A stretch of DNA of 64,000 nucleotides, from the NCBI RefSeq assembly GCF_000380505.1, contig NZ_AQYH01000001.1, forward strand, positions 1 through 64,000, read 5' to 3'. This document shows, piece by piece, positions 27,509 through 44,209 of this stretch. This stretch comes from Kaistia granuli DSM 23481. Lineage in GTDB: Bacteria; Pseudomonadota; Alphaproteobacteria; Rhizobiales; Kaistiaceae. The notes under the pieces are model-generated. The model saw only the letters and a program-made list of their open reading frames with translations. It was not told where the DNA came from and did not search any database. Both the position numbers and the translations under genes were made by a program. Each line of letters begins with the position of its first letter. Position 1 is the first letter of the stretch.

Positions 27509-30500
27509 TCACTTCGTCGTCGTCGGCCCGACGATTTCGACCGAGCCGGTGTCGGTATGGGCCTGGCGCTCGGGGTCGTACATGTCCTCGACCGTCGCGG
27601 CCGGATGCACGAAGGTGCCCGGCGAGACGGCGCGGACGCCATAGGCGACCGTGAACTCCAAGGGATCGCCGGACGAGCGGGTGAGCGCCGCCACGAAGCG
27701 GTCGGTGCGCGCCTCCGTATGCGCCAGGCTGGTCGTGCCCTGCAGCCACGCATAGGACGAGGTGTCGCCCGAGCGCGAGATGTTGGGGTTCTCGATTTCG
27801 AAGCCGGCCGGCAGCGGATCGACCACCATCAGCCGTCCGAACCGGGCCTGATCGGCCGTCACCTTCAGCACCACCACCAACCGGTCGTTCTGCGCGACCG
27901 TCGATGGGTCCGCCTCGCTGCCGTCCGTGTTGAAGTAGCTGCGGGTGATGGTGAAGCCTTCGCCGCCGGCCGGCTCCGGCGATGCCGGAATGCCGGTCAG
28001 CGTCAGTGCCGCATCGAGCGCCACGTCGCTGGTGTTGGCGATGACGAGCGGCTGGTTGTCGACGTCCGAGCCAAGGAGCTTGCGGTAGAGCGGTACCTCG
28101 CCCTTGTGGCCGTCGATCTCGATCGAGGCCTGCTTCAGGTCCGACATCATCGCGGCGGCTGCCATCAGCATCCAGCCCTGTTCCTGGGTGGAGAGATAGC
28201 GGCGGTTGTCGCGGGTGGTCGCCACCTCGTTCACCAGTCTCTTCACGTCGATGCTCTTCTCGCCGCTCTCGGCGACGAGGGTGAGCACTGCCGCCTGGTC
28301 GCGCAGGCCCGAGCCATAGTCCTCACGGCCGGCGAGCTGCTGGCTGGTGGCGCGGCGGAGATTGTCGATGGCGACGCCGAGCACGGAGCCCGAGCGCGCC
28401 TTGTCGCCATAGAGCGCCAGCGCCGCGCCGATCTGCGCCTGGGCAAGCGGGGTCGCGAAGTTGCTCAGCTTCGTCTCCGCGTAGTAGCGCAGATCTCCGA
28501 TCGCCGCCTTGCCGTTGCGGGCAAGCACATAGAGCGAATAGGCGATCGCCTCGCCGCCCCGGTCGAAGTCGGAGGCGTAGCCGACCTTGTTCGAGAGGTT
28601 GTCGAGCGCGTTGTTGAACGCGACCTCGGGAACGAGATAGCCGGCCGCCTTGGCGCGGGTCAGGAAGTCGGTGACATAGGCGTCGAGCCAGAGGTCGTCG
28701 TAGCCCGGCCCCCAGAGGCCGAACGAGCCGGCCGAGGACTGGTTGTCGAGCACCTTGCCGATCGAGGCCTGGATGCGCTCGCGCAGCTCGCTGTCCTGCG
28801 CGATGCCGATCGTCGCCGCCACCTGGTTCAGGTAGAGCAGCGGCATGGCCCGTGAGGTGATCTGCTCGGTGCAGCCATAGGGGTAGCGGTCGAGCGAGGC
28901 GAGGATCGCCGCGACGTCGAGCTTGGCCGTGCCGCCGACGGCGAGCGTGGCGCTCGTCGTGCCCGGAACGAACTCGGCGAAGGCGTAGCGGTCGACGCTC
29001 AGCGTGTTGCCGGGTGCCATCGAGATCAGCGAGCGGCGCGAGACCGGCTGGCCAGCCGGCCGGATGCCCAATTGATAGGTCCGGTCGAAGGTCCGCCCAC
29101 TCTCCGGGCTCGCCAGGCTGACGGTGATCTCGTGGTCGCCAATGTCGACGGCCTTGATCGGCAGCGCGATCGTCGCGCGGCCGGCCTTTTCCAGCCGAAC
29201 CTGCTTGTCCGCGTCGCCGGGATCCATGGTAACGCCCGGCGCGTCGACGGAGAGGCGGTAGTCGCCGGCCGGCCCTTCCACATTGTTGACCTCGACGAGG
29301 ATGCGGCTCTGGTCGTCCGGCGTCATGAAGCGCGGCAGGCTCGCCATCAGCACGACCGGGTCGCGGACGATGATGTCCTGCTCGGCATGGCCCACGCCTT
29401 CCTTCGACCAGGCCATCGCCATCACACGGACCGTGCCGTTGAAGTCGGGCAGGTCGAAGGTGATGGTCGCCTTGCCGTTTTCGTCGACCTTCACCACGCC
29501 GGAATAATAGGCGATCAGCTTCTCGGTCGGCGGCGGCGACTTCAGCCCCGCCGCGCCGCCATCGCCGCCGGAGCGGAGACGGCCGGGAACGCCCTGCATG
29601 CGGTCGATCAGCAGGCCGTAGAGGTCACGGATCTCCATGCCGAGCCGGCGCTGGCTGAAATACCAGCCATCCGGATCGGGCGTCTTGAACTGGGTCAGGT
29701 TGAGGATGCCGACATCGACGGCGGCGACCGTGACATAGGCGTCCTCGCCTGCCTTCAGATTGGCGAGCGTGACGGGGATGGTCAGCGGCCCGCGCGGCCG
29801 GATCTGTGCCTCGGCGCCCAGCTGGACATCGATGCGGCGGTCAGCCGGATCGACGGGCACCCAGGCGAGGCCGAGCGCGCGCGACGGCATCCGCTTCGCC
29901 TCGACGTCCATCGGCCGGAACAGGGTGGCGGTCACATAGGCGCCCGGGCCCCATTGGGTCGTCACGTCGAGGTCGACGGTGGTGCCGCCCTCCGGCACCT
30001 CGACCGTCTTCATGTCGATGACGCGGTCGTCGATCACCATGATCTGGGCAATGCCGGGGAAGCGCGGATCGAGGCGCAGCTTGGCGGTCTCGCCGGGCTT
30101 GTAGTTCTTCTTGTCGAGCGAGACGGTCAGCATATCAGGCGTCTCGGACGCAGCGCTGGCATCGACATACCAGCCGGCGTCGAAGGCATAGCTCGACGAG
30201 GTCGGCGCGTCGCCGGCGAGCGCAACCGTCAGGCGGAAGCGGCCCCAGTTGACCTTGCTCTCGACCGTCGCCGGCTTGCCGGCCGTGAGATCGACGGTGC
30301 CGTTGGCGACGCGGGTCGCCGTGGTGATCGCCTCGTATTTCCAGGCGCCGTCGCGGCGATACCACTGGTAGTTCGTGTCGAGCTTCTCGATCGACCAGGT
30401 CGCGCCATCCGCGTCGATGCGCTGGCCGTCCGGGCCGATGGCGATCAGCTCGAAGGACGCGGCGCCGCCTTCCGGAACGCTGCCATCAAAGTTCGGTTTG

Positions 30501-33025
30501 ATGCCGATATGCGGCTTGGTGCCGTCGGCCGGCAGCGTCATCCGCCGCTCGACCGCGCGGCCGTTGGTGTCGGTGACGCGGACGATGATCTCGGCGTTGA
30601 AGAGTTTTGTGGTCTCCGGCAGCGACGGCACGGTGGCGTCGAAGCTGGCACGGCCGTCCTCGTCGGTGACGGCGCTGGCGCCGAGCGAATCCCTGATGCT
30701 CTCGACCGGATCGTCGGACAGGCCGAACGAATAGCCCGGATAGTCCGGGCTGACGCTGGTCGGCGTCGCGATGATGTCGCCGTCGACGCCGAGGCCGATC
30801 GCGTTGGCGCCGTAGAGATATTTCGCGGTGAGCTCGATCGGGAAGGTGCCGCCCGAGGTCAACCGCTCGGCGGTGGTCTTCAGTTCGAAGGCGACCCGCT
30901 CCGGCTCGAAATCGTCGATCAGCGCCGAGATCTCGGTCAGCGCCGCGCCATCGGGATCGGCATAGAGCTGGAAGCGCCAGGCGCCGCGCTGGGCGCCATC
31001 GGGGATGGCGACGTCCTGGCTGTAGCCGCCCTGGCCCTCGTCATCGAGCTTGGTGCGCAGGAACTCGACGCCGTCCGGGCGGTCGACGACGAGCGTCAGC
31101 GGCAGGCCGGCGACGGCCTTGGCCTGGCTGTCGCGCAAGAGCGCCGTCAGATGCACGGTCTCGCCGGGGCGATAAATGCCGCGCTCGGAGGTGAAGAACG
31201 TGTCGAGCGCGCCCGGCGCCGGACGGCCGTCGACGCCGCGATCGGTCAGGTCGAACGCCGTCTTCTTCATGTCGAGGAAGGCGTAGTCGCCGGCTTCCGT
31301 CTGCGCGACCAGAAGCTGGGGCGCCATGCCGCCCGTGCCGCGCGCGAGGCCCGGCTCGAAATGGACGTAGCCGTCGGCGTTGGTGGTCGCCTCGCCGAGG
31401 ATCTCGTCATTGGTCGCGACCAGCTTCACCTTGACGCCGGCCAGCGCCTTGGCGGTGTTCAGCGAGCGGATGACGGCATGGACGCCATCATTGCCCGAAA
31501 GCGCCGAAAGGCCGAGGTCGGAGACGATGAACCACTGGGTCGCGAGCGAGGAATCGTAGCCGCCGTCGCTGGAGCCCTTGGTCGCCGCCTTGGCGGTGAT
31601 GACATAGACGCCGGGTTCGATCGTCTTGACCGCGTCGCCGATCGGGATCGCCGTGGTGATGCTCTCGTTCAGCTTCTTGTTCGCGACCTCGATCTGGCCC
31701 TTCCAGACAGAGATGCCGGACTGGCCGGCGATCTGGCTGGCGGAGTAGCTGTCGAGCTGGCGCAGGAAATTGCCATCGCGCACGGCGATGGCGAGCGCGC
31801 GGTCGCCGATGCGGTAGACCTCGGCGTCGATCAGATCGGTGTTGACGCTATCGATCGGGATCGAGGCGCCCTGGCCGGCCGGCAGCACATAGGCATTGCC
31901 GGCAAAGCCGACCCACGGCGCGCGGTCGCGGATATAGCTCGTCACCTCGGCCATCTGCTGCAGCTTCTCGCCGTCGGCGGAAGGCAGACCGGCGCGGAAG
32001 CGCATGGTGTAGCGCTGGCCGTGCTTCAGCCCGTCGATGCAGATCTGGTTGTCCTGCGGCTCGACCGCGAGACCCTTGCCGCCCTCGACGACGACGAAGT
32101 CGGAGAGCGTCGGATCGGAAACGGGGAGGGGGTCAGAGAAAACGACGCACATGCGCGGCGAGGTGGCGTCGGCGTCGACCGTGTTGGAGACGATGCGGAA
32201 GCCGCGCTCGGCGATGAGCTTGTCGAAGGCGGCGCGCAGCTGCGGATCCTGCTTGTATTCGAGACTCAGGCGATAGGCCTTGATCGCCGCCTTCCACATC
32301 TCCCGTTTTTCCAGCGCCTGGCCGAGCAGGGCGAGGGCCTGCGCCTGTTCGCCGGCGCCGTCGGCGCGGAGATAAGCGTTGATCGCGGCCGACGAGGCGG
32401 CGGTCATCGCCTGCTGGCGCTGGCCATAATCGTCGGGATTGCGCTGTAGCTGCGCCGCGGCGAAGGCGCGCCAGAGCGCCGGGTCGTCCGGGGCGATGGC
32501 GAGCATGGCGCCGAGATCGCGCGCCAGCTCGGTGACGTTGCCGGTCTGGCGCGAGCGTTCCGCGCCCTGGCGGATCGTGTCGTAGCCGACGCCGTGCGAG
32601 GGATAGTCGCTGGGGAGAGCGCCGAGCTGGCGCTTCGCTTCGTCGAAGGGCGAGGGGCCGAGGAACGAGAGTTCCTCGATGCGCTTCTCCTCGATGCTCT
32701 TGTCGAGCGCCTTGGCGGTGACGATGCGGCCGGCATTCGCGCCGGAGGCGACCGCGAGCGCGCCGAAATCGCTCTTCAGGAAGCACCACTTCGCCTTGGT
32801 GTTGTAGGTGAACGCCTTACAGCTTTGGTCGTCGGCGCAAGCCGTGGCGCAGGCCTTCTGCTCGACGTCCTTCAGCGTCTGGTAATCGAAGCCCGGATAA
32901 TCGGCGTCGCGGCTGATGATGACGCGTCGGGGTCCGCTCTCCTGCGCGCTGGCTGGTGTCGCCAGGCCGCCGAGGGAGAGGGTCAGGCCGAGCACGAGCC
33001 CCAGTATCCCGCCAACACCGCGCAT
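27509..33025 (-). CDS. Bacterial alpha-2-macroglobulin with N-terminal PAN-like domain
   Basis: An 1838-residue secreted protein. A signal peptide ending TPASA-QE (not a lipobox) is followed by a PAN/Apple-like Cys-rich domain (about residues 33-92: four to five cysteines in DYQTLKDVEQKACATACADDQSCKAFTYN...WCF), macroglobulin domains, bait region, and a thioester motif YGCTEQ with Cys1385 and Gln1388 in the TED helical domain. Such proteins trap proteases after bait cleavage. Unlike E. coli YfhM there is no lipid anchor, so it is probably soluble in the periplasm. It lies directly upstream of pbpC, its usual partner. Confidence 0.95.
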   Translation of the reverse strand: MRGVGGILGLVLGLTLSLGGLATPASAQESGPRRVIISRDADYPGFDYQTLKDVEQKACATACADDQSCKAFTYNTKAKWCFLKSDFGALAVASGANAGRIVTAKALDKSIEEKRIEELSFLGPSPFDEAKRQLGALPSDYPSHGVGYDTIRQGAERSRQTGNVTELARDLGAMLAIAPDDPALWRAFAAAQLQRNPDDYGQRQQAMTAASSAAINAYLRADGAGEQAQALALLGQALEKREMWKAAIKAYRLSLEYKQDPQLRAAFDKLIAERGFRIVSNTVDADATSPRMCVVFSDPLPVSDPTLSDFVVVEGGKGLAVEPQDNQICIDGLKHGQRYTMRFRAGLPSADGEKLQQMAEVTSYIRDRAPWVGFAGNAYVLPAGQGASIPIDSVNTDLIDAEVYRIGDRALAIAVRDGNFLRQLDSYSASQIAGQSGISVWKGQIEVANKKLNESITTAIPIGDAVKTIEPGVYVITAKAATKGSSDGGYDSSLATQWFIVSDLGLSALSGNDGVHAVIRSLNTAKALAGVKVKLVATNDEILGEATTNADGYVHFEPGLARGTGGMAPQLLVAQTEAGDYAFLDMKKTAFDLTDRGVDGRPAPGALDTFFTSERGIYRPGETVHLTALLRDSQAKAVAGLPLTLVVDRPDGVEFLRTKLDDEGQGGYSQDVAIPDGAQRGAWRFQLYADPDGAALTEISALIDDFEPERVAFELKTTAERLTSGGTFPIELTAKYLYGANAIGLGVDGDIIATPTSVSPDYPGYSFGLSDDPVESIRDSLGASAVTDEDGRASFDATVPSLPETTKLFNAEIIVRVTDTNGRAVERRMTLPADGTKPHIGIKPNFDGSVPEGGAASFELIAIGPDGQRIDADGATWSIEKLDTNYQWYRRDGAWKYEAITTATRVANGTVDLTAGKPATVESKVNWGRFRLTVALAGDAPTSSSYAFDAGWYVDASAASETPDMLTVSLDKKNYKPGETAKLRLDPRFPGIAQIMVIDDRVIDMKTVEVPEGGTTVDLDVTTQWGPGAYVTATLFRPMDVEAKRMPSRALGLAWVPVDPADRRIDVQLGAEAQIRPRGPLTIPVTLANLKAGEDAYVTVAAVDVGILNLTQFKTPDPDGWYFSQRRLGMEIRDLYGLLIDRMQGVPGRLRSGGDGGAAGLKSPPPTEKLIAYYSGVVKVDENGKATITFDLPDFNGTVRVMAMAWSKEGVGHAEQDIIVRDPVVLMASLPRFMTPDDQSRILVEVNNVEGPAGDYRLSVDAPGVTMDPGDADKQVRLEKAGRATIALPIKAVDIGDHEITVSLASPESGRTFDRTYQLGIRPAGQPVSRRSLISMAPGNTLSVDRYAFAEFVPGTTSATLAVGGTAKLDVAAILASLDRYPYGCTEQITSRAMPLLYLNQVAATIGIAQDSELRERIQASIGKVLDNQSSAGSFGLWGPGYDDLWLDAYVTDFLTRAKAAGYLVPEVAFNNALDNLSNKVGYASDFDRGGEAIAYSLYVLARNGKAAIGDLRYYAETKLSNFATPLAQAQIGAALALYGDKARSGSVLGVAIDNLRRATSQQLAGREDYGSGLRDQAAVLTLVAESGEKSIDVKRLVNEVATTRDNRRYLSTQEQGWMLMAAAAMMSDLKQASIEIDGHKGEVPLYRKLLGSDVDNQPLVIANTSDVALDAALTLTGIPASPEPAGGEGFTITRSYFNTDGSEADPSTVAQNDRLVVVLKVTADQARFGRLMVVDPLPAGFEIENPNISRSGDTSSYAWLQGTTSLAHTEARTDRFVAALTRSSGDPLEFTVAYGVRAVSPGTFVHPAATVEDMYDPERQAHTDTGSVEIVGPTTTK

Positions 33026-33197: not shown

Positions 33198-34124
33198 CTA
33201 GCGTTCGCCGAGTGCGGCGAGCGCGGTGACAGCGGCCGAGGCGCGGTTCTCGACGCCGAGCTTCTGGTAGACCTGCTCGAGGTGCTTGTTCACGGTGCGC
33301 GGCGACAGGCCGAGGATCTCGGCGATGTCGCGGTTCGATTTGCCGCGCGCGATCCAGAGCAGAACCTCGGCCTCGCGCTGGGTGACGGTGAACTGGCGGC
33401 GCAGCAGCGCCTCCTGGCCGTTGTCGTCCTCGCTCGACAGGCGGAACAGGAACTCGTCCTCGCCGGTCTTGCCAACGAAGGCGAGCTGCAACTGCCGTCC
33501 GCCCTCGACCGGGATCGGGCCGGGCTGGCTGGTGCCGCTGCCGCGCTCGCCGGCCGAGACGCGCAGCCAGATGCGGATGCTCTCGGGCAGGCGGATATGG
33601 CCGTCCGAGCTCGGCAGAGTGGTTTCGAGCAGCTTCACCGCCTGCGGCGTGCACCAGCGGATCTCGCCCTCGCGATTGGCGGCGAGCAGATAGCGCCCTG
33701 CCGTGTCGAGCGCCAGGCGGGCGCTCTGTGCCGTGCGGGCATTGGCGAGGTGGACGCGGATGCGGGCGAGCAGCACATCGAGCACGATCGGCTTGGTGAC
33801 ATAGTCGACGCCGCCCGCCTCCAGCCCCTCGAGAACGTGCTCGGTCTCCGACAGGCCGGTCATGAAGATAACAGGCACATGCGCCAGCGCCGTGTTCGCC
33901 TTCAGCCGCCGGCAGGCCTCGAAGCCGTCCATGCCGGGCATGACGGCGTCCATCAGCACGATGTCCGGCGTGATCCGCTCGACCAGCGTCAGCGCCCGCG
34001 TGCCCGAGGTCGCGACCAGCACGGTGGCGCCAGAGCGCTCCAGCGCCTCGGTGAGAAAACTCAGCGTCTCCGGCGAATCGTCGACGACGAGGACGATGTC
34101 GCGGCCGTGCGTCGTCTCACTCAT
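33198..34124 (-). CDS. LuxR-type response regulator paired with the NCS1-kinase
   Basis: A 308-residue regulator with three parts: a receiver (phospho-acceptor Asp59 in IVLMDAVMPGMDG, Lys in VTKPI), a PAS-like middle (about residues 130-230, AANREGEIRWCTPQAVKLLE), and a C-terminal LuxR/NarL helix-turn-helix (TQREAEVLLWIARGKSNRDIAEILGLSPRTVNKHLEQVYQKLGV). It overlaps the kinase gene by eight bases, so the two are translated from one message. It likely binds dyads such as TACGTC-N4-GACGTA upstream of urtA; this is inference. Receiver-PAS-LuxR is less common than plain receiver-LuxR. Confidence 0.9.
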   Translation of the reverse strand: MSETTHGRDIVLVVDDSPETLSFLTEALERSGATVLVATSGTRALTLVERITPDIVLMDAVMPGMDGFEACRRLKANTALAHVPVIFMTGLSETEHVLEGLEAGGVDYVTKPIVLDVLLARIRVHLANARTAQSARLALDTAGRYLLAANREGEIRWCTPQAVKLLETTLPSSDGHIRLPESIRIWLRVSAGERGSGTSQPGPIPVEGGRQLQLAFVGKTGEDEFLFRLSSEDDNGQEALLRRQFTVTQREAEVLLWIARGKSNRDIAEILGLSPRTVNKHLEQVYQKLGVENRASAAVTALAALGER

Positions 34125-37100
34125 GCTCGCTCACCTCTTCCAGCGTCGCCTGGTATCCGTCGAAATCGAAATCGCGGAGATGCGCGCGCAATGCCGCCAC
34201 GAAGGGCTGGTTGTCCGCCTCGCTGGCAAGGGCGTCGAGCTTCGCCTCGATGCCGCGGACATAGCCGATCTGGCCGAGGTCGAGAAGCTCGCGTACATGG
34301 TCGGCGCCGGGGCTCCTGAGCGGCGCCGCTTGCGGTTCGGGATTCGGCGCCGGCGGCTCGTCGATCCAGTCAAGCTGCAGGAGCACCTGAATCCGGTCGA
34401 GCAGCTGGCGCATGTCGAATGGCTTCGGCAGCGCCGCGTCATGCGCCGCGTCCTCGGCCGGCTCCGGCTGCATCTCGCCGAGGCTCGCCGACAGCATGAC
34501 GATCGGCGCGGCGTGACCGTTGTCCCGGAGCTTCCGTGCCAGCTCGAAGCCGGTCATGCCCGGCATCGAGATGTCGAGCAGGAAGAGGTCGGGCCTTATG
34601 TCGGCGGTCAGCGCGAGGCAGGCGGGGCCGTCAGCGACGGCAAGCACGGTGAATCCGAGCGGCTCCAGGATCTGCCGCACCAACTCGCGATGATCGGGGT
34701 CGTCGTCGGCGACGAGGATGACGCGGCGCGGGCCCTGATAGCCGAAGACCCGCTTGGCCGGCGACGGCAGCGGCGCCGGCCGGTCGATGGCGGTGAGCAT
34801 GACGCGCACCTCGAACCGGCTGCCGGCGCCGGGGCGGCTGGTGAGCCGGATGTCGCCGCCCATCAGCTGCGCCAGCATCTTGGTGATGGTGAGCCCGAGC
34901 CCGGTGCCGGGGGCTGCCAGCGCCTGCGCGCCGCTGCCGCGCTCGAACGGCTCGAAGATGCGGTCGAGATCCTCGGCGGCGATGCCCGGGCCGGTGTCCT
35001 CGACGGTCAGGGTCGCGATCTGACTGCGATAGGCGACGCGGAAGGTGACGCCGCCCTGATCGGTGAACTTGATCGCGTTGGAGAGCAGATTGACCAGGAT
35101 CTGGCGCAACCGCTTTTCGTCGGTCGCCACTACCTCCGGCAGCTGCTCCGGTCGTTCAAAGCGGAAGGCGAGGCCCTTCGTCTCGGCCTGGAAGCGGAAC
35201 ATGTCGACGAGCTGGTTGAGGAAGTCGCCGAGCCGGATCTCGTCGCGCTGCAGCCGTAGCCGCCCCGTCTCGATGCGCGAGATCTCCAGGAGGCCGTCGA
35301 TGAGGCCAGAGAGGTGCTCGGCGCTGCGGCGAATGACGCTGATATTGCCCTGGCGCGTCGGCGGGATCGCCTCGTCGCGCTCCAGGATCTGGGCATAGCC
35401 GAAGACGGCGTTGAGCGGCGTGCGCAGTTCGTGGCTGAGGCCCACGAGGTAACGGCTCTTCGCCTGGTTGGCGGATTCGGCGACTTCCTTGGCGCGCTGC
35501 AATTCGGCGTCCGTCTTCCGGTGCGCCTCGATTTCGCGCAGCAGCAGTGTCGTCTGCCGCGCCGATTCCTCCTGCGCCACATGCCGGCTCTCGTTGGCGA
35601 GCACCAGGAACCAGGCGACGATGCCGGAGACGATCAAGAGGATGAAGAACGCCGCCCAGAGCGTCTGGCCGATGATGTCGCCAAAGCCGCTCTCGTGCAC
35701 GTTCTGATAGGACGTCGCCTGCACGTGGATCAGCAGAAGCACCAGGCTGATCACCGTCATGAACAAGATCAGCACGCCGGCATATTGCACGACGCGCGGG
35801 CCGACGCGAGCCGCGACCTCGGTCGGCAATACCTTGGCCACGGCGATGCTGACTTGGTTCTGCAGCCGCGCATGCGGCTTGCAGAGGTCATGGCAGCGGG
35901 CGTCGAGCGAACAGCAGAGCGAGCAGATCGGCCCGGAATAGGCCGGGCAATAGGCGCTGTCCTCCGGCTCGAAATAGTGTTCGCAGACCGTGCAGCGGAT
36001 CTCCTTCATCGCGTGCCAATGCGCGCGCGGTTTTCGCGCGAGATAGTAGCGGCCGCCCGTTCCCCAGGCGATCAGGGGGGCCGCCACGAGCGCCACGCCG
36101 AGCGCGATGAACGGGGCGAAGGCCTGCGCCACCGCCCCGGCGAGACCGACTGCCGCCATCAGGCCGAGCGCGGTGGCGATCGCCATCGCGCCGACGCCGA
36201 CCGGGTTGATGTCGTAGAGATGGGCGCGCTTGAATTCGATCCCCGGTGGCGACAGGCCGAGCGGCTTGTTGATGGCGAGGTCGGCTACGATCGTGCCGAG
36301 CCAGGCGACGGCGACTACGGAGAACAGGCCGAGCGTCTGCTCCAAGGCCCGATAGATGCCGAGCTCCATCAGGAGCAGCGCGATGGCGACGTTGAAGATC
36401 AGCCAGACGACACGGCCGGGATGGCTGTGCGTCAGACGCGAGAAGAAATTCGACCAGGCGAGCGAGCCCGCATAGGCATTCATCACGTTGATCTTCAATT
36501 GCGAGACGACGACGAAGGCGGCGGTCAGGAAGAGGGCCGCATCTTGCCAGGGCAGCACATAGCCGAAGGCGACGACATACATCCGCGCCGGCTCGGCGGC
36601 GTGCTCGGCCGGCACCCCGTGCCGCAGCGCCAGCACGGCGAGGAACGAGCCGAACAGCAGCTTCGGCGCGCCGACGAGAATCCAGCCGGCGCCGGCCAAG
36701 AGCGTCGCGATGCGGCCGCGTTTTCCTTCCAGGCCCTGGGCCGGCAGGAAGCGCAGGATGTCCACCTGTTCGCCGATCTGCGGCATCAGGCCGAGGATGA
36801 CCGAGCAGGCGGCGCCGAGCGAGATCAGCCCGAAGGCCGGGCTCGCCTCGGTCGGCGCCGGTCCCTCGAAGGCGAGCCATGCGGCGACGGCGCCCGGCTC
36901 CTGCCAGAGAATGAAGCCGACCGGCAGGATGTTGAGGATGATCCAGAGCGGCTGGGTGACGATCTGAAAGCGGCTGATCCAGGTGATGCCGTGCGTCACC
37001 AGCGGAATGACGATGACGGCGCTCAATATGTAGCCGAGCCAGATCGGGATGCCGAAGGCGATCTCCAGCGCCGTTGTCATGATCGAGGCTTCGATCGCGA

Positions 37101-37503
37101 ACAGGATGAAGGTGAAGGTGGCGTAGATCAGCGAGGTGACGGTCGAACCGATATAGCCGAAGCCTGCGCCTCGCGTCAGAAGGTCGATGTCGACACCGTA
37201 GCGCGAGGCGTAGCGGGCAATCGGCAGGCCGGTCAGCAGCAGGACGATGCCGACGATCGCGGTAGCGTAGAGGGTGGTGACCGTGCCGTGCGACAAGGTG
37301 ATGGCGCCGCCGATCGCCTCCAGCGCCAGGAAGGAGATGGCGCCGATCGCCGTCTGCGCGACACGCGGCGTGGTCCAGCGGCGGGCGCTCTTCGCGGTGA
37401 AGCGGAGCGCGTAGTCCTCCAGCGTCTGGTTCGCGACCCAGCGGTTGTAGTCGCGGCGGACGGGGAGGATCCGCTGTCGTCCGGCCATCGCGTCTCTGCT
37501 CAT
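34117..37503 (-). CDS. NCS1-permease-fused hybrid sensor histidine kinase
   Basis: A 1128-residue protein. Residues 1-490 are an NCS1 (purine/cytosine/allantoin/hydantoin) permease with about 12 helices (RRDYNRWVANQTLEDYALRF; TLSHGT; RGAGFGYIGS). Residues 504-541 hold eight cysteines (CTVC, C519, C527-x2-CC, C537, C541), probably a metal site. Two further helices (571-593, 613-636) and a coiled segment lead to the kinase: H-box His691 in LSHELRTP, N-box NLLSNAIKF, G-boxes DTGPG and GTGLGL. A receiver follows with Asp977, then a 70-residue tail. The permease half probably senses or moves a nitrogenous solute. Divergent from urtABCDE. Start 37503; 37488 is possible. Confidence 0.9.
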   Translation of the reverse strand: MSRDAMAGRQRILPVRRDYNRWVANQTLEDYALRFTAKSARRWTTPRVAQTAIGAISFLALEAIGGAITLSHGTVTTLYATAIVGIVLLLTGLPIARYASRYGVDIDLLTRGAGFGYIGSTVTSLIYATFTFILFAIEASIMTTALEIAFGIPIWLGYILSAVIVIPLVTHGITWISRFQIVTQPLWIILNILPVGFILWQEPGAVAAWLAFEGPAPTEASPAFGLISLGAACSVILGLMPQIGEQVDILRFLPAQGLEGKRGRIATLLAGAGWILVGAPKLLFGSFLAVLALRHGVPAEHAAEPARMYVVAFGYVLPWQDAALFLTAAFVVVSQLKINVMNAYAGSLAWSNFFSRLTHSHPGRVVWLIFNVAIALLLMELGIYRALEQTLGLFSVVAVAWLGTIVADLAINKPLGLSPPGIEFKRAHLYDINPVGVGAMAIATALGLMAAVGLAGAVAQAFAPFIALGVALVAAPLIAWGTGGRYYLARKPRAHWHAMKEIRCTVCEHYFEPEDSAYCPAYSGPICSLCCSLDARCHDLCKPHARLQNQVSIAVAKVLPTEVAARVGPRVVQYAGVLILFMTVISLVLLLIHVQATSYQNVHESGFGDIIGQTLWAAFFILLIVSGIVAWFLVLANESRHVAQEESARQTTLLLREIEAHRKTDAELQRAKEVAESANQAKSRYLVGLSHELRTPLNAVFGYAQILERDEAIPPTRQGNISVIRRSAEHLSGLIDGLLEISRIETGRLRLQRDEIRLGDFLNQLVDMFRFQAETKGLAFRFERPEQLPEVVATDEKRLRQILVNLLSNAIKFTDQGGVTFRVAYRSQIATLTVEDTGPGIAAEDLDRIFEPFERGSGAQALAAPGTGLGLTITKMLAQLMGGDIRLTSRPGAGSRFEVRVMLTAIDRPAPLPSPAKRVFGYQGPRRVILVADDDPDHRELVRQILEPLGFTVLAVADGPACLALTADIRPDLFLLDISMPGMTGFELARKLRDNGHAAPIVMLSASLGEMQPEPAEDAAHDAALPKPFDMRQLLDRIQVLLQLDWIDEPPAPNPEPQAAPLRSPGADHVRELLDLGQIGYVRGIEAKLDALASEADNQPFVAALRAHLRDFDFDGYQATLEEVSEHE

Positions 37504-37593
37504 CTTCTGGGCGTGCCTAGGAATTAAGCGAAGATGCGCGATCCCGTGGGGCGGCGCAAGGTGGAAGGTGGCGAAATTGGAGGCGTTCCTCCG

Positions 37594-37840
37594 CCGTAAC
37601 CCCGGCCCCGAGGCGGGGCCCATTCCACCGGGTTGCCAGGCCTTTCACGTTTTTGCTGACCTTCGCGCAACACCGAAGGGTCGCCATGCGGCCGGGGCCC
37701 ATGGGCAAGGCACCGTCGCTCCGGCGAAGGCCGGGCCCATGAACACCGGCCAGGAAGTCTTGGGCCAGAGAAGCCTTGGCCCAGCCTTCTGGCTGCCGGC
37801 CGGCGCGTCTGGATCCCGGCCTTCGCCGGGATGACGGCCG
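37594..37840. repeat. Cluster of GC-rich palindromic (REP-like) repeats
   Basis: CCGGCGAAGGCCGGG at 37721-37735 recurs inverted as CCCGGCCTTCGCCGG at 37815-37829. The latter lies in the CCCGGCCTTCGCCGGGATGAC context known from intergenic repeats in many alphaproteobacteria. Further stems are GGCCCCG-AGG-CGGGGCC near 37602 and TTGGGCCA/TTGGCCCA near 37760. The whole forms a compact repeat island between two divergent genes. Confidence 0.65.
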
Positions 37841-37887
37841 AGGGTGGGACGCATCCGTCCAGCCCAGCCTCTCTGCCCGCGCCCACC

Positions 37888-37903
37888 TACGTCAATCGAC
37901 GTA
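37888..37903. promoter_or_regulatory. Dyad TACGTC-AATC-GACGTA upstream of urtA
   Basis: A perfect 6-bp inverted repeat with a 4-base spacer, 157 bases before the urtA start codon. The TACGT half-sites resemble those of NarL/FixJ-class regulators, the class of the response regulator encoded with the NCS1-kinase. I found only this one copy of the full dyad in the window. Assignment to that regulator is inference. Confidence 0.5.
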
Positions 37904-38059
37904 TATGCTGCACTGCCAAAACTGCCGACACTTGCCCCCAAGAACGGGATCGGCCCGCTTTCGAAATCCCGCCGATCCCGTTCCACGATGTTCGAACAGA
38001 AACCGCTCCATCCGGCGCGACCCGCCGGACCAAGGGCCGAACAGGGGGAATTGATACCG

Positions 38060-39358
38060 ATGAGCTACATCAGCCGGACCATCGGCGCGCTCGCGACGGC
38101 AGCCATGATCGGCGCCGGCGTGACCAGCGCCGTCGCCGCGGAGGAGACCATCAAGGTCGGCGTCCTCCATTCGCTGTCGGGCACGATGGCGATTTCCGAA
38201 ACCACGCTCAAGGACACCGTCCTCTTCCTGATCGACGAGCAAAACAAGAAGGGCGGCGTGCTCGGCAAGAAGCTCGAGGCGGTCGTCGTCGACCCGGCCT
38301 CGAACTGGCCGCTCTTCGCCGAGAAGGCGCGCGAGCTGATCAGCCAGAACGGTGTCTCGGTCGTGTTCGGCTGCTGGACCTCGGTTTCCCGCAAGTCGGT
38401 GCTGCCGGTATTCAAAGAGCTGAACTCGATCCTGTTCTATCCCGTCCAGTATGAGGGCGAGGAGAGCGAGCGGAACGTCTTCTATACCGGCGCCGCGCCG
38501 AACCAGCAGGCGATCCCCGCCGTCGACTATCTGATGAGCGAGGACGGCGGCGCCGTGAAGCGCTGGGTGCTCGAAGGCACCGACTACGTCTACCCGCGCA
38601 CCACCAACAAGATCCTCGAGGCGTATCTGAAGTCGAAGGGCGTCGCCGCCGAGGACATCATGGTCAACTACACGCCGTTCGGCTTCTCCGACTGGCAGAC
38701 CGAAGTCGCCGCGATCAAGAAGTTCGGCTCCGCCGGCAAGAAGACCGCCGTCGTCTCCACCGTCAACGGCGACGCCAACGTGCCGTTCTACAAGGAGCTC
38801 GGCAACCAGGGCATCAAGGCGACCGACATTCCGGTCGTCGCCTTCTCGGTCGGCGAGGAAGAACTGGCCGGTATCGACACCAAGCCGCTGGTCGGCCATC
38901 TCGCCGCCTGGAACTACTTCCAGTCCGTCGACACGCCGGAGAACGAGGCGTTCATCAAGAAGTGGCGCGCCTTCATCGGCAACGAGAAGCGCACCACCAA
39001 CGACCCGATGGAAGCGACCGTCATCGGCTTCAACGCCTGGGTGAAGGCGGTCGAGAAGGCCGGCACCACCGAGCCTGACGCCGTGATCGACGGCCTGATC
39101 GGCGTCTCCGTGCCGAACCTGACCGGCGGCTTCTCGACCATCATGCCGAACCACCACATCACCAAGCCCGTCTATATCGGCGAAATCCAGGAAGACGGCC
39201 AGCTCGATGTCGTCTGGCAGACCCCCGGCCTCGTGGTCGGCGACGAATGGTCCGACTACCTGCCGGACTCGAAGGACCTGATCGCGGATTGGCGCGCTCC
39301 GATGGCCTGCGGCAACTTCAACGTCGCGACCGGCAAGTGCGGCGGCAAGGGTTCCTGA
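38060..39358 (+). CDS. urtA: Urea ABC transporter substrate-binding protein
   Basis: A 432-residue periplasmic protein with a Sec signal peptide (MSYISRTIGALATAAMIGAGVTSAVAA). The mature part, ETIKVGVLHSLSGTMAISETTLKD, and blocks FGCWTSVSRKSVLPVFKELNSILFYPVQYEGEE and NYTPFGFSDWQTEV are diagnostic of UrtA/FmdD proteins that bind urea or short-chain amides. Start ATG 38060 behind AGGGGGAA. It opens the urtABCDE operon; a hairpin and a repeat doublet separate it from urtB. Urea is the best-supported ligand because the full gene set follows. Confidence 0.95.
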   Translation: MSYISRTIGALATAAMIGAGVTSAVAAEETIKVGVLHSLSGTMAISETTLKDTVLFLIDEQNKKGGVLGKKLEAVVVDPASNWPLFAEKARELISQNGVSVVFGCWTSVSRKSVLPVFKELNSILFYPVQYEGEESERNVFYTGAAPNQQAIPAVDYLMSEDGGAVKRWVLEGTDYVYPRTTNKILEAYLKSKGVAAEDIMVNYTPFGFSDWQTEVAAIKKFGSAGKKTAVVSTVNGDANVPFYKELGNQGIKATDIPVVAFSVGEEELAGIDTKPLVGHLAAWNYFQSVDTPENEAFIKKWRAFIGNEKRTTNDPMEATVIGFNAWVKAVEKAGTTEPDAVIDGLIGVSVPNLTGGFSTIMPNHHITKPVYIGEIQEDGQLDVVWQTPGLVVGDEWSDYLPDSKDLIADWRAPMACGNFNVATGKCGGKGS

Positions 39359-39693: not shown

Positions 39694-41316
39694 GTGGTCG
39701 ACATGATCCAACGCTGCAAGGCCCTTTTCGCCATCCTGGCTCTCGTCCTCGTTGCTGCCATGCCGGCCCGCGCGGATGATCTGAAGCCGCTGGTCGACGG
39801 GCTCGGCAAGAATGGCTATGCGGCGCTGCGCGAGGCCGTCGGCGCGCTGGCGGCAACCGGCGATCCGGCCGTGGCGCCCGTGCTGCAGGCGCTCGGCGCC
39901 GGCGATCTCTATGTGCGCAAGTCCGATCGCGCCGTCTTCGCGGCGGTAAAGGCGGATGGCGGCTTCAGCCTCAGGGATCCGCTGACCGGCGCCGATGCCG
40001 GCACGGCCGGTTCGCGCGACGTCGAGAAGATCAGGGTCAACAATGCGATCCGCGAGGCGGTCACCACCGCGCTCGGCTCGCTGACGCTGATGAGTCCCGA
40101 TATCGCCAAGCGTCGCGCCGCGGCGGCCGACATGTTCAGGAACGGCGACCCGGCCCAGATTCCGCTGCTCGACGAGGCGATCGCCAAGGAGACCGATCCC
40201 GGCATCGCGACGACTCTGCAGATGGCGCGCGCCGCCGCCGTGCTCAAATCGGAAGCCTCCGACGCCGACAAGATCGCGGCGATCGGCGTGCTGCAGGCGA
40301 AGGGCGGCCGCGACGTGCTCGCCCAACTGACGACGATCGAGGCCGCCTCGGCGGACGGTCCGGTCAAGGCCGCGGCGCAGAGCGCGCTGACCTCGATCCA
40401 GGGAACGCTCCAACTCTGGGACGGCGCGCAGAACATCCTCTACGGCATCTCGCTCGGCTCGGTGCTGCTGCTCGCGGCCATCGGGCTCGCCATTACCTTC
40501 GGCGTCATGGGCGTCATCAACATGGCGCATGGCGAGATGGTCATGCTCGGCGCCTACACGACTTTCGTCGTGCAGGAACTCATCCGCAACAACATGCCGT
40601 GGCTGTTCGACTGGTCGCTCGCCATCTCGCTGCCGCTCGCCTTTCTCGTCGCCGGCCTGGTCGGCGTCCTGATCGAGCGCATGGTGATCCGCTATCTCTA
40701 CGGCCGGCCGCTCGAGACGCTGCTCGCCACCTGGGGCGTGTCGCTGATCCTGCAGCAGGCCGTCCGCACCTGGTTCGGCCCTAACAATCGCGAGGTCGGC
40801 AATCCCTCCTGGATGTCGGGCGCCTTCGAGCTCGGCAACCTCACCATCACCTACAACCGCATGTGGATCGTCGTCTTCGCGCTGGTGGTGTTCGCGGCGC
40901 TGATGCTGGTGCTGAAGCGCACCGCCTTCGGCCTGCAGACCCGCGCGGTGACGCAGAACCGGCCGATGGCGTCCTCCATGGGCATCCGCACGCCCTGGGT
41001 CGACGCGCTCACCTTCGGCCTCGGCTCCGGCATTGCCGGCATTGCCGGCGTCGCGCTCAGCCAGATCGACAATGTCAGCCCCAATCTCGGCCAGGGCTAC
41101 ATCATCGACAGTTTCATGGTCGTGGTGTTCGGCGGCGTCGGCAATCTCTGGGGCACGCTGGTCGGCGCCTTCACGCTCGGCATCGCCAATAAGTTCCTCG
41201 AGCCCTATGCCGGCGCCGTGCTCGGCAAGATCCTGGTTCTCGTCTTCATCATCCTGTTCATCCAGAAGCGCCCGCGCGGCCTGTTCGCGCTGAAGGGCCG
41301 GGCGGTGGAGGCATGA
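39694..41316 (+). CDS. urtB: Urea ABC transporter permease UrtB
   Basis: A 540-residue membrane protein. A signal-like segment (ALFAILALVLVAAMPARA) precedes a periplasmic helical repeat domain of about 220 residues, then a LivH-type permease of about eight helices (GVMGVINMAHGEMVMLGAYT, GRPLETLLATWGVSLIL, GYIIDSFMVVVFGGVGNLWGT). The long extracytoplasmic N-terminal domain is typical of UrtB and distinguishes it from LivH. The start is GTG at 39694, with an ATG three codons on. It pairs with UrtC. Confidence 0.95.
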   Translation: MVDMIQRCKALFAILALVLVAAMPARADDLKPLVDGLGKNGYAALREAVGALAATGDPAVAPVLQALGAGDLYVRKSDRAVFAAVKADGGFSLRDPLTGADAGTAGSRDVEKIRVNNAIREAVTTALGSLTLMSPDIAKRRAAAADMFRNGDPAQIPLLDEAIAKETDPGIATTLQMARAAAVLKSEASDADKIAAIGVLQAKGGRDVLAQLTTIEAASADGPVKAAAQSALTSIQGTLQLWDGAQNILYGISLGSVLLLAAIGLAITFGVMGVINMAHGEMVMLGAYTTFVVQELIRNNMPWLFDWSLAISLPLAFLVAGLVGVLIERMVIRYLYGRPLETLLATWGVSLILQQAVRTWFGPNNREVGNPSWMSGAFELGNLTITYNRMWIVVFALVVFAALMLVLKRTAFGLQTRAVTQNRPMASSMGIRTPWVDALTFGLGSGIAGIAGVALSQIDNVSPNLGQGYIIDSFMVVVFGGVGNLWGTLVGAFTLGIANKFLEPYAGAVLGKILVLVFIILFIQKRPRGLFALKGRAVEA

Positions 41317-41416: not shown

Positions 41417-42571
41417 ATGGTGACCGCCTTCCTCCTGCGCGCGCTCGACCGTCGCACCGCGATCGTCCTTATCGCGATCCTCGGCGTCGGCATCCTGCTG
41501 CCGGTGCTCAACCTGACGATGGATCCCTCAAGCCCGTTCCATGTGCCGACCTATGTGCTGACGCTGCTCGGCAAGTATCTGACCTATGCGCTGCTGGCGC
41601 TCGCGGTCGACCTGGTCTGGGGCTTCTGCGGCATCCTCTCGCTCGGCCACGCCGCCTTCTTCGCGCTCGGCGGCTACGCCATGGGCATGTACCTGATGCG
41701 CCAGATCGGCGACCGCGGCACCTACGGTAATCCGCTCCTTCCCGACTTCATGGTCTTCCTGAACTGGAAGGAACTGCCCTGGTTCTGGACCGGCTTCGAC
41801 CATTTCTGGTTCGCCGCGATCATGGTGCTGCTGGTGCCGGGCCTGCTCGCCTTCGTCTTCGGCTGGTTCGCCTTCCGCTCTCGCGTCACCGGCGTCTATC
41901 TGTCGATCATCACCCAGGCGATGACCTATGCGCTGCTGCTCGCCTTCTTCCGCAACGACATGGGCTTCGGAGGTAACAACGGGCTAACGGACTTCAAGGA
42001 CATTCTGGGCTTCGACATCCAGGCGGACGCGACGCGCGGTGCGCTGTTCTTCGCCTCGGCGCTGGCGCTCGCCGCCGGCTTCTGGATCTGCCGCGCGGTC
42101 ATTGCCTCGAAGTTCGGCAAGGTGCTGGTCGCCGTCCGCGACGCCGAGGGCCGGACTCGTTTCATTGGCTACCGGGTCGAGGGCTACAAGCTGGTCGTCT
42201 GGACGCTGTCGGCCATGATGGCCGGCGTCGCCGGCGCGCTCTACGTGCCCCAGATCGGCATCATCAATCCCGGCGAATTCGCGCCGGCCAATTCGATCGA
42301 GGCGGTGATCTGGGTGGCGGTCGGCGGCCGCGGCACGCTGATCGGCCCGATCGTCGGTGCGCTGCTCGTCAATTTCGGCAAGACCTGGTTCACCAGCGGC
42401 ATGCTGGCCGAATACTGGCTGTTCGTGCTCGGCGGCCTGTTCGTGCTCGTCACCCTGTTCCTGCCCAAGGGCGTTGTCGGCACGCTTCTGGCCCGGGACC
42501 GGAAGAAGCCGGTGGAGAAGCCGATCGAGGACGTCGTGGCGCCGGGCGCCGTCGGCCAGGCAGCGGAGTGA
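41417..42571 (+). CDS. urtC: Urea ABC transporter permease UrtC
   Basis: A 384-residue LivM-type permease with about nine or ten helices. Family blocks are LVWGFCGILSLGHAAFFALGGYAMGMYLMR, LAFFRNDMGFGGNNGLTDFKDILGF and AVIWVAVGGRGTLIGPIVGALLVNFGKTWFT. The long first extracytoplasmic region and the 'NDMGFGGNNGLTDF' segment are typical of UrtC. It overlaps the GTG that may start urtD, so urtC-urtD are tightly coupled. Confidence 0.95.
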   Translation: MVTAFLLRALDRRTAIVLIAILGVGILLPVLNLTMDPSSPFHVPTYVLTLLGKYLTYALLALAVDLVWGFCGILSLGHAAFFALGGYAMGMYLMRQIGDRGTYGNPLLPDFMVFLNWKELPWFWTGFDHFWFAAIMVLLVPGLLAFVFGWFAFRSRVTGVYLSIITQAMTYALLLAFFRNDMGFGGNNGLTDFKDILGFDIQADATRGALFFASALALAAGFWICRAVIASKFGKVLVAVRDAEGRTRFIGYRVEGYKLVVWTLSAMMAGVAGALYVPQIGIINPGEFAPANSIEAVIWVAVGGRGTLIGPIVGALLVNFGKTWFTSGMLAEYWLFVLGGLFVLVTLFLPKGVVGTLLARDRKKPVEKPIEDVVAPGAVGQAAE

Positions 42572-42576
42572 GCCCC

Positions 42577-43353
42577 ATGAACACGGCAAATGCACAGATT
42601 GCGAACGCCAAGGCCAAGGATTCGCTGCTCTATCTCGACGGCGTCAGCGTTTCCTTCGACGGCTTCAAGGCGCTGCGGGGGCTGTCGCTGGTGATCGAGC
42701 CCGGCGAGATGCGCGCGATCATTGGCCCGAACGGCGCCGGCAAGACCACGATGATGGACGTCATCACCGGCAAGACCAAGCCGGATTCGGGCGACGTCTA
42801 TTTCGCAGGCGACACCGACCTGACCCGCCTCGACGAGGCGGCGATCGCCTCGCTCGGCATCGGCCGCAAGTTCCAGAAGCCGACCGTCTTCGAGAGCCAC
42901 ACGGTCTGGGACAATATCGACCTGGCGCTGGCAGGCGACCGCAAGCCGTTCGCGACGCTGTTCCACCGCACCTCGAAGGCGGAGATTGCGAGGGTGGAGG
43001 AGATCCTCGAAACCATACGCCTTTCCGACAAGCGCGACTGGCTCGCCGCCAACCTCTCGCACGGCCAGAAGCAGTGGCTGGAGATCGGCATGCTGCTGGC
43101 GCAGGAGCCGAAGCTGCTGCTCGTCGACGAGCCGGCGGCGGGCATGACCGATTCCGAGACGGCTGAGACAGCGATCCTGCTGAAGGAGATCGCCAAGACC
43201 AAATCGGTGGTAGTGGTCGAGCACGACATGACCTTCGTGCGCGACCTCGGCGTCAAGGTGACCGTCCTGCACGAGGGCTCGGTGCTCTCGGAGGGCTCGC
43301 TCGACGTCGTCTCGGCCGATCCGAAGGTGATCGAGGTCTATCTGGGGCGATGA
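42577..43353 (+). CDS. urtD: Urea ABC transporter ATPase UrtD
   Basis: A 258-residue LivG-type ATP-binding protein. Walker A is GPNGAGKTT, the signature is LSHGQKQWLEIGMLL (LSHGQ replacing LSGGQ, as in UrtD), and Walker B/switch is LLVDEPAAGMTDSE with the H-loop VVVEHDM. ATG 42577 is preferred; a GTG at 42568 overlapping the urtC stop would add three residues. Its stop codon overlaps the start of a 53-codon ORF, which is unusual in urt operons as I know them. Confidence 0.95.
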   Translation: MNTANAQIANAKAKDSLLYLDGVSVSFDGFKALRGLSLVIEPGEMRAIIGPNGAGKTTMMDVITGKTKPDSGDVYFAGDTDLTRLDEAAIASLGIGRKFQKPTVFESHTVWDNIDLALAGDRKPFATLFHRTSKAEIARVEEILETIRLSDKRDWLAANLSHGQKQWLEIGMLLAQEPKLLLVDEPAAGMTDSETAETAILLKEIAKTKSVVVVEHDMTFVRDLGVKVTVLHEGSVLSEGSLDVVSADPKVIEVYLGR

Positions 43354-43511
43354 GGAAACCCGTCAAATCCGCCGCTGACGACGCGTGCCCGCTGCCGGAG
43401 GCGCCGCAGGAAACGCCGTCCGGGCTGCGCGGGTCGCGCCGGTCGGCCGCCTGGAACCAGGCGATGGCGCGCATGGCGCAAGCGAACAAACCAGACCGCG
43501 AGAGGGGCTGA
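43350..43511 (+). CDS. Small ORF coupled between urtD and urtE
   Basis: A 53-codon frame whose ATG overlaps the urtD stop (ATGA) and whose TGA ends two bases before the urtE ATG, filling the urtD-urtE gap exactly. The product is MRKPVKSAADDACPLPEAP..., then a basic, helix-prone second half SGLRGSRRSAAWNQAMARMA, with no signal peptide or membrane segment. The Pro-rich acidic first part and basic tail do not match a family I recognise. Coding status rests on the exact fit between coupled genes; a chance frame or non-coding spacer cannot be excluded. The urtE ribosome binding site (GAGAGGGG) lies in its last codons. Confidence 0.5.
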   Translation: MRKPVKSAADDACPLPEAPQETPSGLRGSRRSAAWNQAMARMAQANKPDRERG

Positions 43512-43513
43512 TC

Positions 43514-44209
43514 ATGCTCGAAGCGAAGAACGTCGATCTTTTTTACGGAGCCGCGCAGGCGCTGCGCCATGTCTCGCTTTCGGCCGAAACCGGCAAGGTG
43601 ACCTGCCTGATGGGCCGGAACGGCGTCGGCAAGACGAGCCTGTTGCGCGCCATCGTCGGCCAGAAGCCGATCTCGGGCGGTGAGATCCTGTGGGAGGGCA
43701 AGCCACTCGGCCGCATGGCGCCGCACGAGCGCGCCAAGGCCGGCATCGCCTATGTGCCGCAGGGGCGGGAAATCTTCCCGCTCCTATCGGTGAAGGAAAA
43801 TCTCGAAACGGGTTATGCGCCGCTCGCGCGTCGCGAGCGCAACATTCCCGATTATGTGTTCGATCTGTTTCCGGTGCTGAAGGACATGCTTCGCCGGCGC
43901 GGCGGCGACCTGTCAGGCGGTCAGCAGCAGCAATTGGCCATCGGGCGCGCGCTGGTGATGCGGCCCCGACTCCTGGTCCTCGATGAGCCGACGGAGGGCA
44001 TCCAGCCGTCGATCATCAAGGACATCGGCCGTGCGATCGAATGGCTGCGCGCGCAGGGGACCATGGCGATCCTTCTGGTCGAGCAATATTTCGATTTCGC
44101 ACATGAACTGGCCGATCGTTTCGCTGTGATGGATCGCGGCGAGATCGTGGTCTCGGGCACGCAATCCGAAATGGGCTCGGAACAAGTCCGCGCCCATCTC
44201 ACCGTATGA
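43514..44209 (+). CDS. urtE: Urea ABC transporter ATPase UrtE
   Basis: A 231-residue LivF-type ATP-binding protein of the exact usual UrtE length. Walker A is GRNGVGKTS, signature LSGGQQQQLAIGRAL, Walker B LLVLDEPTEGIQPSI and H-loop VEQYFDF. Start ATG 43514 behind GAGAGGGG. Its 3' end overlaps by 11 bases the convergent small gene at 44199. No urease genes follow in this window. Confidence 0.95.
   Translation: MLEAKNVDLFYGAAQALRHVSLSAETGKVTCLMGRNGVGKTSLLRAIVGQKPISGGEILWEGKPLGRMAPHERAKAGIAYVPQGREIFPLLSVKENLETGYAPLARRERNIPDYVFDLFPVLKDMLRRRGGDLSGGQQQQLAIGRALVMRPRLLVLDEPTEGIQPSIIKDIGRAIEWLRAQGTMAILLVEQYFDFAHELADRFAVMDRGEIVVSGTQSEMGSEQVRAHLTV

Follow-up and report, generated by a model that had tools for sequence, protein, structure and literature searches.

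How bacteria sense urea and related small nitrogen compounds is the question raised by a gene pair of Kaistia granuli DSM 23481, which lies in the 64,000-nucleotide stretch of DNA analysed in this study (contig NZ_AQYH01000001.1, positions 1 to 64,000; hereafter the window). One gene encodes a hybrid sensor kinase with a permease-like sensor half, the other a LuxR-type response regulator, and both face away from the urea transporter operon urtABCDE, as the initial annotation of the region had described; all five urt genes score above their respective TIGRFAM cut-offs. In many bacteria the genes next to such a pair serve the uptake of urea or amides, and one particular DNA site in front of those genes accompanies it; the pair therefore probably represents an unstudied route by which urea-like nitrogen compounds are sensed. 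Specifically, we consider it likely that kinase and regulator form a two-component system that resembles a transceptor, uses an NCS1 permease as its scaffold, responds to a small amide and switches urtABCDE.

The kinase contains HisKA, HATPase_c and receiver domains above the Pfam cut-offs, with His691 as the phosphorylation site and Asp977 as the receiver residue. The length of 1128 residues and both active residues agree with the initial annotation; the exact start is uncertain because the reading frame is open further upstream, to an ATG at 37623, and many relatives start at the equivalent of M6 (ATG 37488). The annotated fusion of a 12-helix NCS1 permease to the kinase core holds for the permease, but two elements intervene: a segment of eight cysteines (residues 504-541), which may bind zinc, and two extra hydrophobic helices (about residues 567-640). 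Together they appear to occupy the place where a STAC domain would sit, and the kinase, when tested for an SLC5/SSS domain, showed none. The regulator has receiver and GerE (LuxR) domains above the Pfam cut-offs and Asp59 as acceptor, so that the pair combines the HisKA/HATPase_c histidine, receiver aspartate and GerE output of a hybrid kinase with a NarL/FixJ-type regulator. The PAS domain previously placed in the middle of the regulator was not confirmed. It has no Pfam match, and although the strand and helix order of the structural model is PAS-like at residues 146-231, the VIA structure comparison gave no confirmation because receiver domains occupy the match list. The two genes overlap by 8 bp, in agreement with the earlier coordinates, and this spacing is the commonest among relatives (38/80).

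Sequence searches gave little direct information on the permease half. It had no Pfam match even at E ≤ 10 and no identity from NCBIfam, PF02133 matched none of 19 relatives of the sensor at E ≤ 1 and found nothing in the source genome, and searches of PDB sequences returned nothing useful with the permease-half profile and nothing with the relative L114 alone. Its membership of NCS1 is nevertheless confirmed by fold, by profile-profile comparison and, indirectly, by distant relatives. The top five Foldseek rows are CodB and Mhp1, which VIA also ranks first, with matches covering residues 33-485 (CodB) and 30-517 (Mhp1), and the half has the 12-helix LeuT-type NCS1 fold. An hhalign comparison of the sensor profile with NCS1 gave 96.7% (E 4e-10, 376 columns), and L114 and L115, which are 26-27% identical to the sensor, exceed the PF02133 cut-off. 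The family assignment made in the initial annotation is therefore sound.

Within the order, 45 of 199 genomes contain a relative of the sensor; the corresponding figures are 26 of 385 for the class and 53 of 398 for the phylum. Relatives also occur on 525 plasmid records, which include S. meliloti pSymB and 342 from Klebsiella; the closest named relatives among the matches listed are Kaistia species. A contig search yielded at least 577 confirmed stretches, from which 80 named loci were kept. A canonical urtA is present in 75 of these fetched loci, 15 of which also carry ureC, and three of the five loci lacking it are cut contigs. Among the first 110 loci, which include some genomes twice, 75 have a divergent UrtA-like gene no more than 700 bp away and 27 have one at a greater distance; of the eight with none, six have at most 1.5 kb of upstream DNA and two (L078, L088) have 10 kb. 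A further 52 wide loci were hand-chosen from unnamed draws, favouring distant relatives, with a few genomes giving two. Thirty of these contain a second, distinct urt set (29 with formamidase), nine the canonical urt genes (four with ureC), six ureC alone, four formamidase alone and three none of these. Urea or amide genes are thus present in 75 of the 80 named and 49 of the 52 wide loci. The initial annotation had predicted conserved linkage to urt and had staked its reading beforehand on linkage to urt or other nitrogen genes; that linkage is present.

The regulator accompanies the kinase in all 80 named and in 48 of the 52 wide loci. The four wide loci without it (L111-L113, L202) encode short NCS1-kinases of about 880-900 residues with a formamidase nearby and a sensor half about 50% identical; a Pfam scan of L111 and L112 detected no receiver domain in either. 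Four of the five kinases divergent from urease (L165, L184, L185, L188, L228) have long open frames, of 1216-1365 residues. Annotated records illustrate the range of neighbours: the kinase is divergent from urtABCDE-formamidase on a Klebsiella plasmid (the one such region opened), lies by urtABCDE-fmdA in Paracoccus and by urt plus urease in Methylosinus, and together with its regulator is divergent from urease in Mitsuaria, while no urt, urease or formamidase gene was found near the kinase in Tistrella. From gene context, an urt-like set beside a formamidase has been inferred to carry another amide such as formamide (PMC3098086, PMC13209695), and the available portions of these papers do not deal with the kinase.

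The sensor fold also occurs without a kinase, in standalone permeases of about 535-575 residues that are 38-48% identical to the window sensor half; judging by their neighbours, urea and short amides are likelier ligands than cyclic ureides. Eleven standalone loci were opened, nine of them annotated and two without annotation, and a urease, formamidase or amidase gene lies near the permease in seven of the nine annotated loci. Two Acinetobacter plasmids carry the same permease ahead of a urease operon; other standalone permeases follow a urease operon on a Klebsiella record, adjoin fmdA in Moraxella, have fmdA nearby in Tsukamurella and adjoin an aliphatic amidase in Arthrobacter U41; in Methylovirgula, kinase, regulator, standalone permease, formamidase and amidase all occur together. 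The word "permease" does not occur in the available text of a paper on the Acinetobacter lwoffii urease, where the neighbouring permease goes unmentioned (PMC8472584). Urease, formamidase and amidase queries found nothing in an unannotated S. chartreusis record. In an unannotated A. baumannii record (L226:2397-8605), the kinase-regulator pair and a standalone NCS1 permease are divergently arranged, and the core word TACGCAAAATAACGTA between them also occurs ahead of the kinase in L189 and L201. A CxxC...CSLC tail is common to the kinase and both standalone permeases aligned. In a tree whose very long outgroup branch limits what it can say on the direction of fusion, the standalone permeases fall beside the short kinases, inside the kinase clade.

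These neighbourhoods bear on the allantoin or hydantoin ligand proposed in the initial annotation, the part of its reading that was not supported, whereas the NCS1 fold, the urt linkage and the regulatory link were. It is improbable that the kinase senses a cyclic ureide or nucleobase (allantoin, hydantoin, cytosine), with a urea precursor inducing urea uptake. The fold is common to CodB and Mhp1, and the standalone relatives are named "allantoin permease" or "cytosine permease" in databases; however, the genes that recur nearby are those for urt, urease and formamidase, and no allantoin- or hydantoin-specific family appeared among the 25 commonest of 78 Pfam families in 92 neighbour open reading frames (ORFs) from 15 loci, a set drawn by a simple longest-ORF rule that includes spurious frames. 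The three amidohydrolase matches in that set equal the number of urease alpha subunits.

The binding pocket is consistent with a small ligand. In the profile alignment, the sodium-site residues Ser312 and Thr313 of Mhp1 correspond to Lys337 and Ile338 of the sensor, so the helix-8 Ser/Thr pair is absent. As the site may be missing from genuine NCS1 members, its absence says more about mechanism than about family membership. Gln121 of Mhp1 corresponds to Glu138. The position of Trp117 is Leu134 in 131 of the 212 kinase rows and Phe in 81, as in all true standalone rows, so that one aromatic position favouring a cyclic ligand is partly kept, while Trp220 corresponds to Leu239 in 210 of the 212 rows, a position that was anchored manually on the next Asp, since the hhalign alignment is gapped in this stretch. 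Loss of ring stacking would be partial evidence only. Glu138, Gln242, Glu245, Lys337 and Asn339 are identical in all 212 kinase rows, a redundant set in which some genomes are repeated and one Methylovirgula standalone row is probably included, and in all ten "standalone" rows, one of which is an A. baumannii kinase. Judged from sequence, these residues suggest a sodium-independent protein with a small ligand.

The same residues raise the possibility, which we regard as rather unlikely, that the permease half genuinely transports urea or an amide and that the kinase reads this turnover instead of binding, as in CbrA. The sharing of the five residues with standalone permeases would fit such a transporter, and the invariant Lys337 at the sodium-site position recalls the Na2-site Lys described in the available text on CbrA (PMC13022988). 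However, uptake is already supplied by urtABCDE, kinases and standalone permeases have different residues at positions 57, 58 and 62, and a receptor that had lost transport could have the same sequence appearance.

The proposed link between the kinase-regulator pair and urtA comes from a palindrome, TACGTC-N4-GACGTA, first noticed by reading the divergent promoter regions and proposed as the operator of the regulator. With at most one arm mismatch it is present in 101 of 163 intergenic regions versus 0 of 1630 resampled sequences, and its core TACG-N8-CGTA in 137 of 163 versus 9 of 3260, where the 163 regions contain some genomes more than once and the controls are first-order resamplings, not exact shuffles. 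Conservation is limited to the palindrome plus one or two flanking bases, and the urtA promoter could not be read from it. Across the order, 90 of 111 canonical urtA matches (≥62% identity) were used; of the 21 omitted, one was short of upstream DNA and the rest had some of the lowest ranks. A site with at most two mismatches precedes urtA in all 23 cases with a kinase within about 6 kb (a grouping assigned manually from coordinates), compared with 0 of 55 where the genome gave no kinase match and 0 of 12 where the kinase lies elsewhere, mostly at a second urt set (G150 and G198 have a short kinase only). A perfect site was found in 17 of 25 kinase genomes versus 5 of 96 others, and in 16 of those 17 the kinase or urt locus holds at least one copy. 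The source genome has no perfect palindrome other than that of the window; allowing one mismatch adds a single place, within contig C10, and two urease-alpha stretches and two of formamidase type contain no copy. The site therefore co-occurs with the kinase and not with urtA as such, which supports the regulatory link to urtA proposed earlier.

Several observations weigh against this reading. The three wide loci described above have no urea or amide gene, nor is one found near the standalone permeases of Streptomyces angustmyceticus and Arthrobacter NicSoilB11 (two of the nine annotated loci); the sampled genomes are related, so the counts represent non-independent events; and the pocket interpretation depends on a distant alignment. 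The core is absent from 26 of the 163 intergenic regions, and 8 of the 25 kinase genomes have no perfect site. At one mismatch the pattern shows no genome-wide excess, and no wider regulon is visible because a backward control pattern is commoner than the palindrome. Where kinase and target gene are more than 900 bp apart (25 loci), the site lies within 175 bp of the urtA match in 15, but in three (L151 and L196, which represent the same place, and L195) it is about 1 kb or more from urtA and nearer the kinase, and seven have no site, five of these being urease-type. The palindrome is missing from all five loci whose divergent neighbour is urease, and their kinases may use another operator.

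The urease-type loci and the three displaced sites are what would be expected if the palindrome belonged to another regulator or merely autoregulated the kinase-regulator operon, the urt linkage being historical. We give this explanation little weight, as the site is found in none of the 67 urtA promoters without a nearby kinase and adjoins urtA in most long-gap loci. Its two 7-bp half-sites, 2 bp apart and each starting TAC, form a 7-2-7 layout that fits NarL/FixJ-type GerE domains.

A kinase sensing nitrogen status, such as ammonium or membrane energisation, and not a urea-like ligand, seems similarly doubtful. Operons of urt genes are commonly under nitrogen control, which would suit such a sensor. 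Also in its favour, nitrate as compared with ammonium induces urt in Paracoccus, according to the available text of PMC5424462. However, a general sensor would need neither pocket residues common to urea- and amide-linked permeases nor a single perfect operator in the genome.

For the preferred small-amide system, the following mechanism is proposed. The permease half would bind a small amide, most likely urea and in relatives also formamide or acetamide, and ligand binding or release would alter its conformation. This change could pass through the Cys segment and the two-helix membrane hairpin to the dimerisation helix, which would set the autophosphorylation of His691. Phosphate would then go to Asp59 of the regulator, directly or through Asp977, and the phosphorylated regulator would bind TACGTC-N4-GACGTA and switch urtABCDE, probably on. 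A sensor of this type might, in relatives, control a second (formamide-type) urt set or a standalone permease.

A broader proposal, to which we assign about an even chance from sequence comparisons, is an NCS1 sub-family for urea and short amides that would comprise sodium-independent standalone permeases and a kinase-fused, direct urea or formamide receptor. The putative hallmarks of the standalone permeases would be the Lys at the sodium site and a C-terminal Cys knuckle, and these permeases, often encoded with urease, formamidase or amidase, would be misnamed as allantoin or cytosine permeases. The widespread kinase form would typically control one operon per genome via the palindrome and may move between urt, formamide and urease targets by neighbour swapping.

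Table 1. Positions of the kinase-regulator pair, the proposed operator and the urt genes in the window.
Feature	Position	Strand	Remark
Response regulator, 308 aa: receiver (Asp59), PAS-like middle (unconfirmed), LuxR/GerE DNA-binding domain	33198..34124	-	
NCS1-permease / Cys segment / two-helix hairpin / HisKA-HATPase-receiver hybrid sensor kinase, 1128 aa	34117..37503	-	start possibly ATG 37488
NCS1-fold sensor half, about residues 34-535	35899..37404	-	fold matches and hhalign
Cys-rich segment, Cys 504, 507, 519, 527, 530, 531, 537, 541	35881..35994	-	
Palindrome TACGTCAATCGACGTA, proposed operator of regulator	37888..37903	.	156 bases ahead of likely urtA ATG (38060)
urtA, substrate-binding protein	38060..39358	+	ORF opens 37844; ATG 38060 more likely
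urtB, long N-terminal region, weak HEAT-like matches	39694..41316	+	TIGRFAM
urtC	41417..42571	+	TIGRFAM
urtD	42568..43353	+	TIGRFAM
urtE	43385..44209	+	TIGRFAM

Other features of the region were also observed (Table 1 gives the main coordinates). The N-terminal extension of UrtB is roughly 240 residues long (39694-40413), and its HEAT-repeat matches are weak and below the cut-off. A GC-rich inverted-repeat element was seen by eye at about 37800-37840, between the kinase start and the palindrome. Immediately downstream of the regulator, at 27509-33025 on the minus strand, lies a gene for a large bacterial alpha-2-macroglobulin with an N-terminal PAN domain; in L031-L035 and L039 it likewise follows the regulator. 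At 44552-46756 on the minus strand, a putative secreted protein with a beta-barrel plus a parallel beta-helix was noted by eye. The source genome has three strong urease-alpha matches (contigs C8, C20 and C3), none inside the window.

None of the closest analogues, namely the SLC5-STAC kinases of the CrbS/CrbR and RpuS/RpuR pairs, CbrA and the Amt-kinase of Kuenenia, is an NCS1 protein. CbrA is not known to carry a receiver, and its partner CbrB is an NtrC-type regulator. According to the available text of PMC13022988, CbrA resembles the present kinase in joining a transporter half to a kinase, in having a Lys at the Na2-site position and in nutrient sensing, but is an SLC5-STAC-PAS kinase with histidine as ligand; the term NCS1 does not occur in that text. 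CrbS/CrbR (MxtR/ErdR) and RpuS/RpuR respond to acetate and pyruvate, respectively (PMC5715377, PMC9100948, PMC7918813). As far as the accessible portions of these papers describe them, CrbS is likewise a permease-fused hybrid kinase with a C-terminal receiver and CrbR a LuxR-type regulator, and RpuS/RpuR controls a transporter operon via a conserved promoter repeat. Unlike CrbS and RpuS, the permease here is NCS1 and not SLC5, with the Cys segment and two-helix hairpin at the STAC place; unlike the imperfect direct repeat of RpuR, the proposed operator is an inverted repeat; and unlike both pairs, the neighbours are urea or amide genes. The Kuenenia ammonium sensor kinase also reuses a nitrogen-compound transporter as a histidine-kinase sensor, but has an Amt/Rh fold and senses ammonium, again as described in the available text (PMC5764959). 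Mhp1 (hydantoin) and CodB (cytosine) share fold and helix order with the sensor half, which differs in being fused to a kinase and, from Mhp1, in its pocket residues. Among the papers listed in searches of the open-licence literature, none was recognisable as describing an NCS1-kinase fusion or the palindrome operator, and the available text of a paper on a Klebsiella plasmid urt/amiF cluster discusses the cluster without a regulator (PMC13060141).

Since the ligand class and operator are now specific predictions, the system goes beyond a routine sensor kinase. If the proposed reading is true, the uptake of urea and amides in many Pseudomonadota, Klebsiella plasmids among them, would gain a named sensor, operator and ligand class. 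NCS1 would join SLC5 as the second family of LeuT-fold transporters that has been put to use as the sensor of a kinase, and a set of standalone "allantoin/cytosine permeases" would be suggested to be urea or amide permeases.

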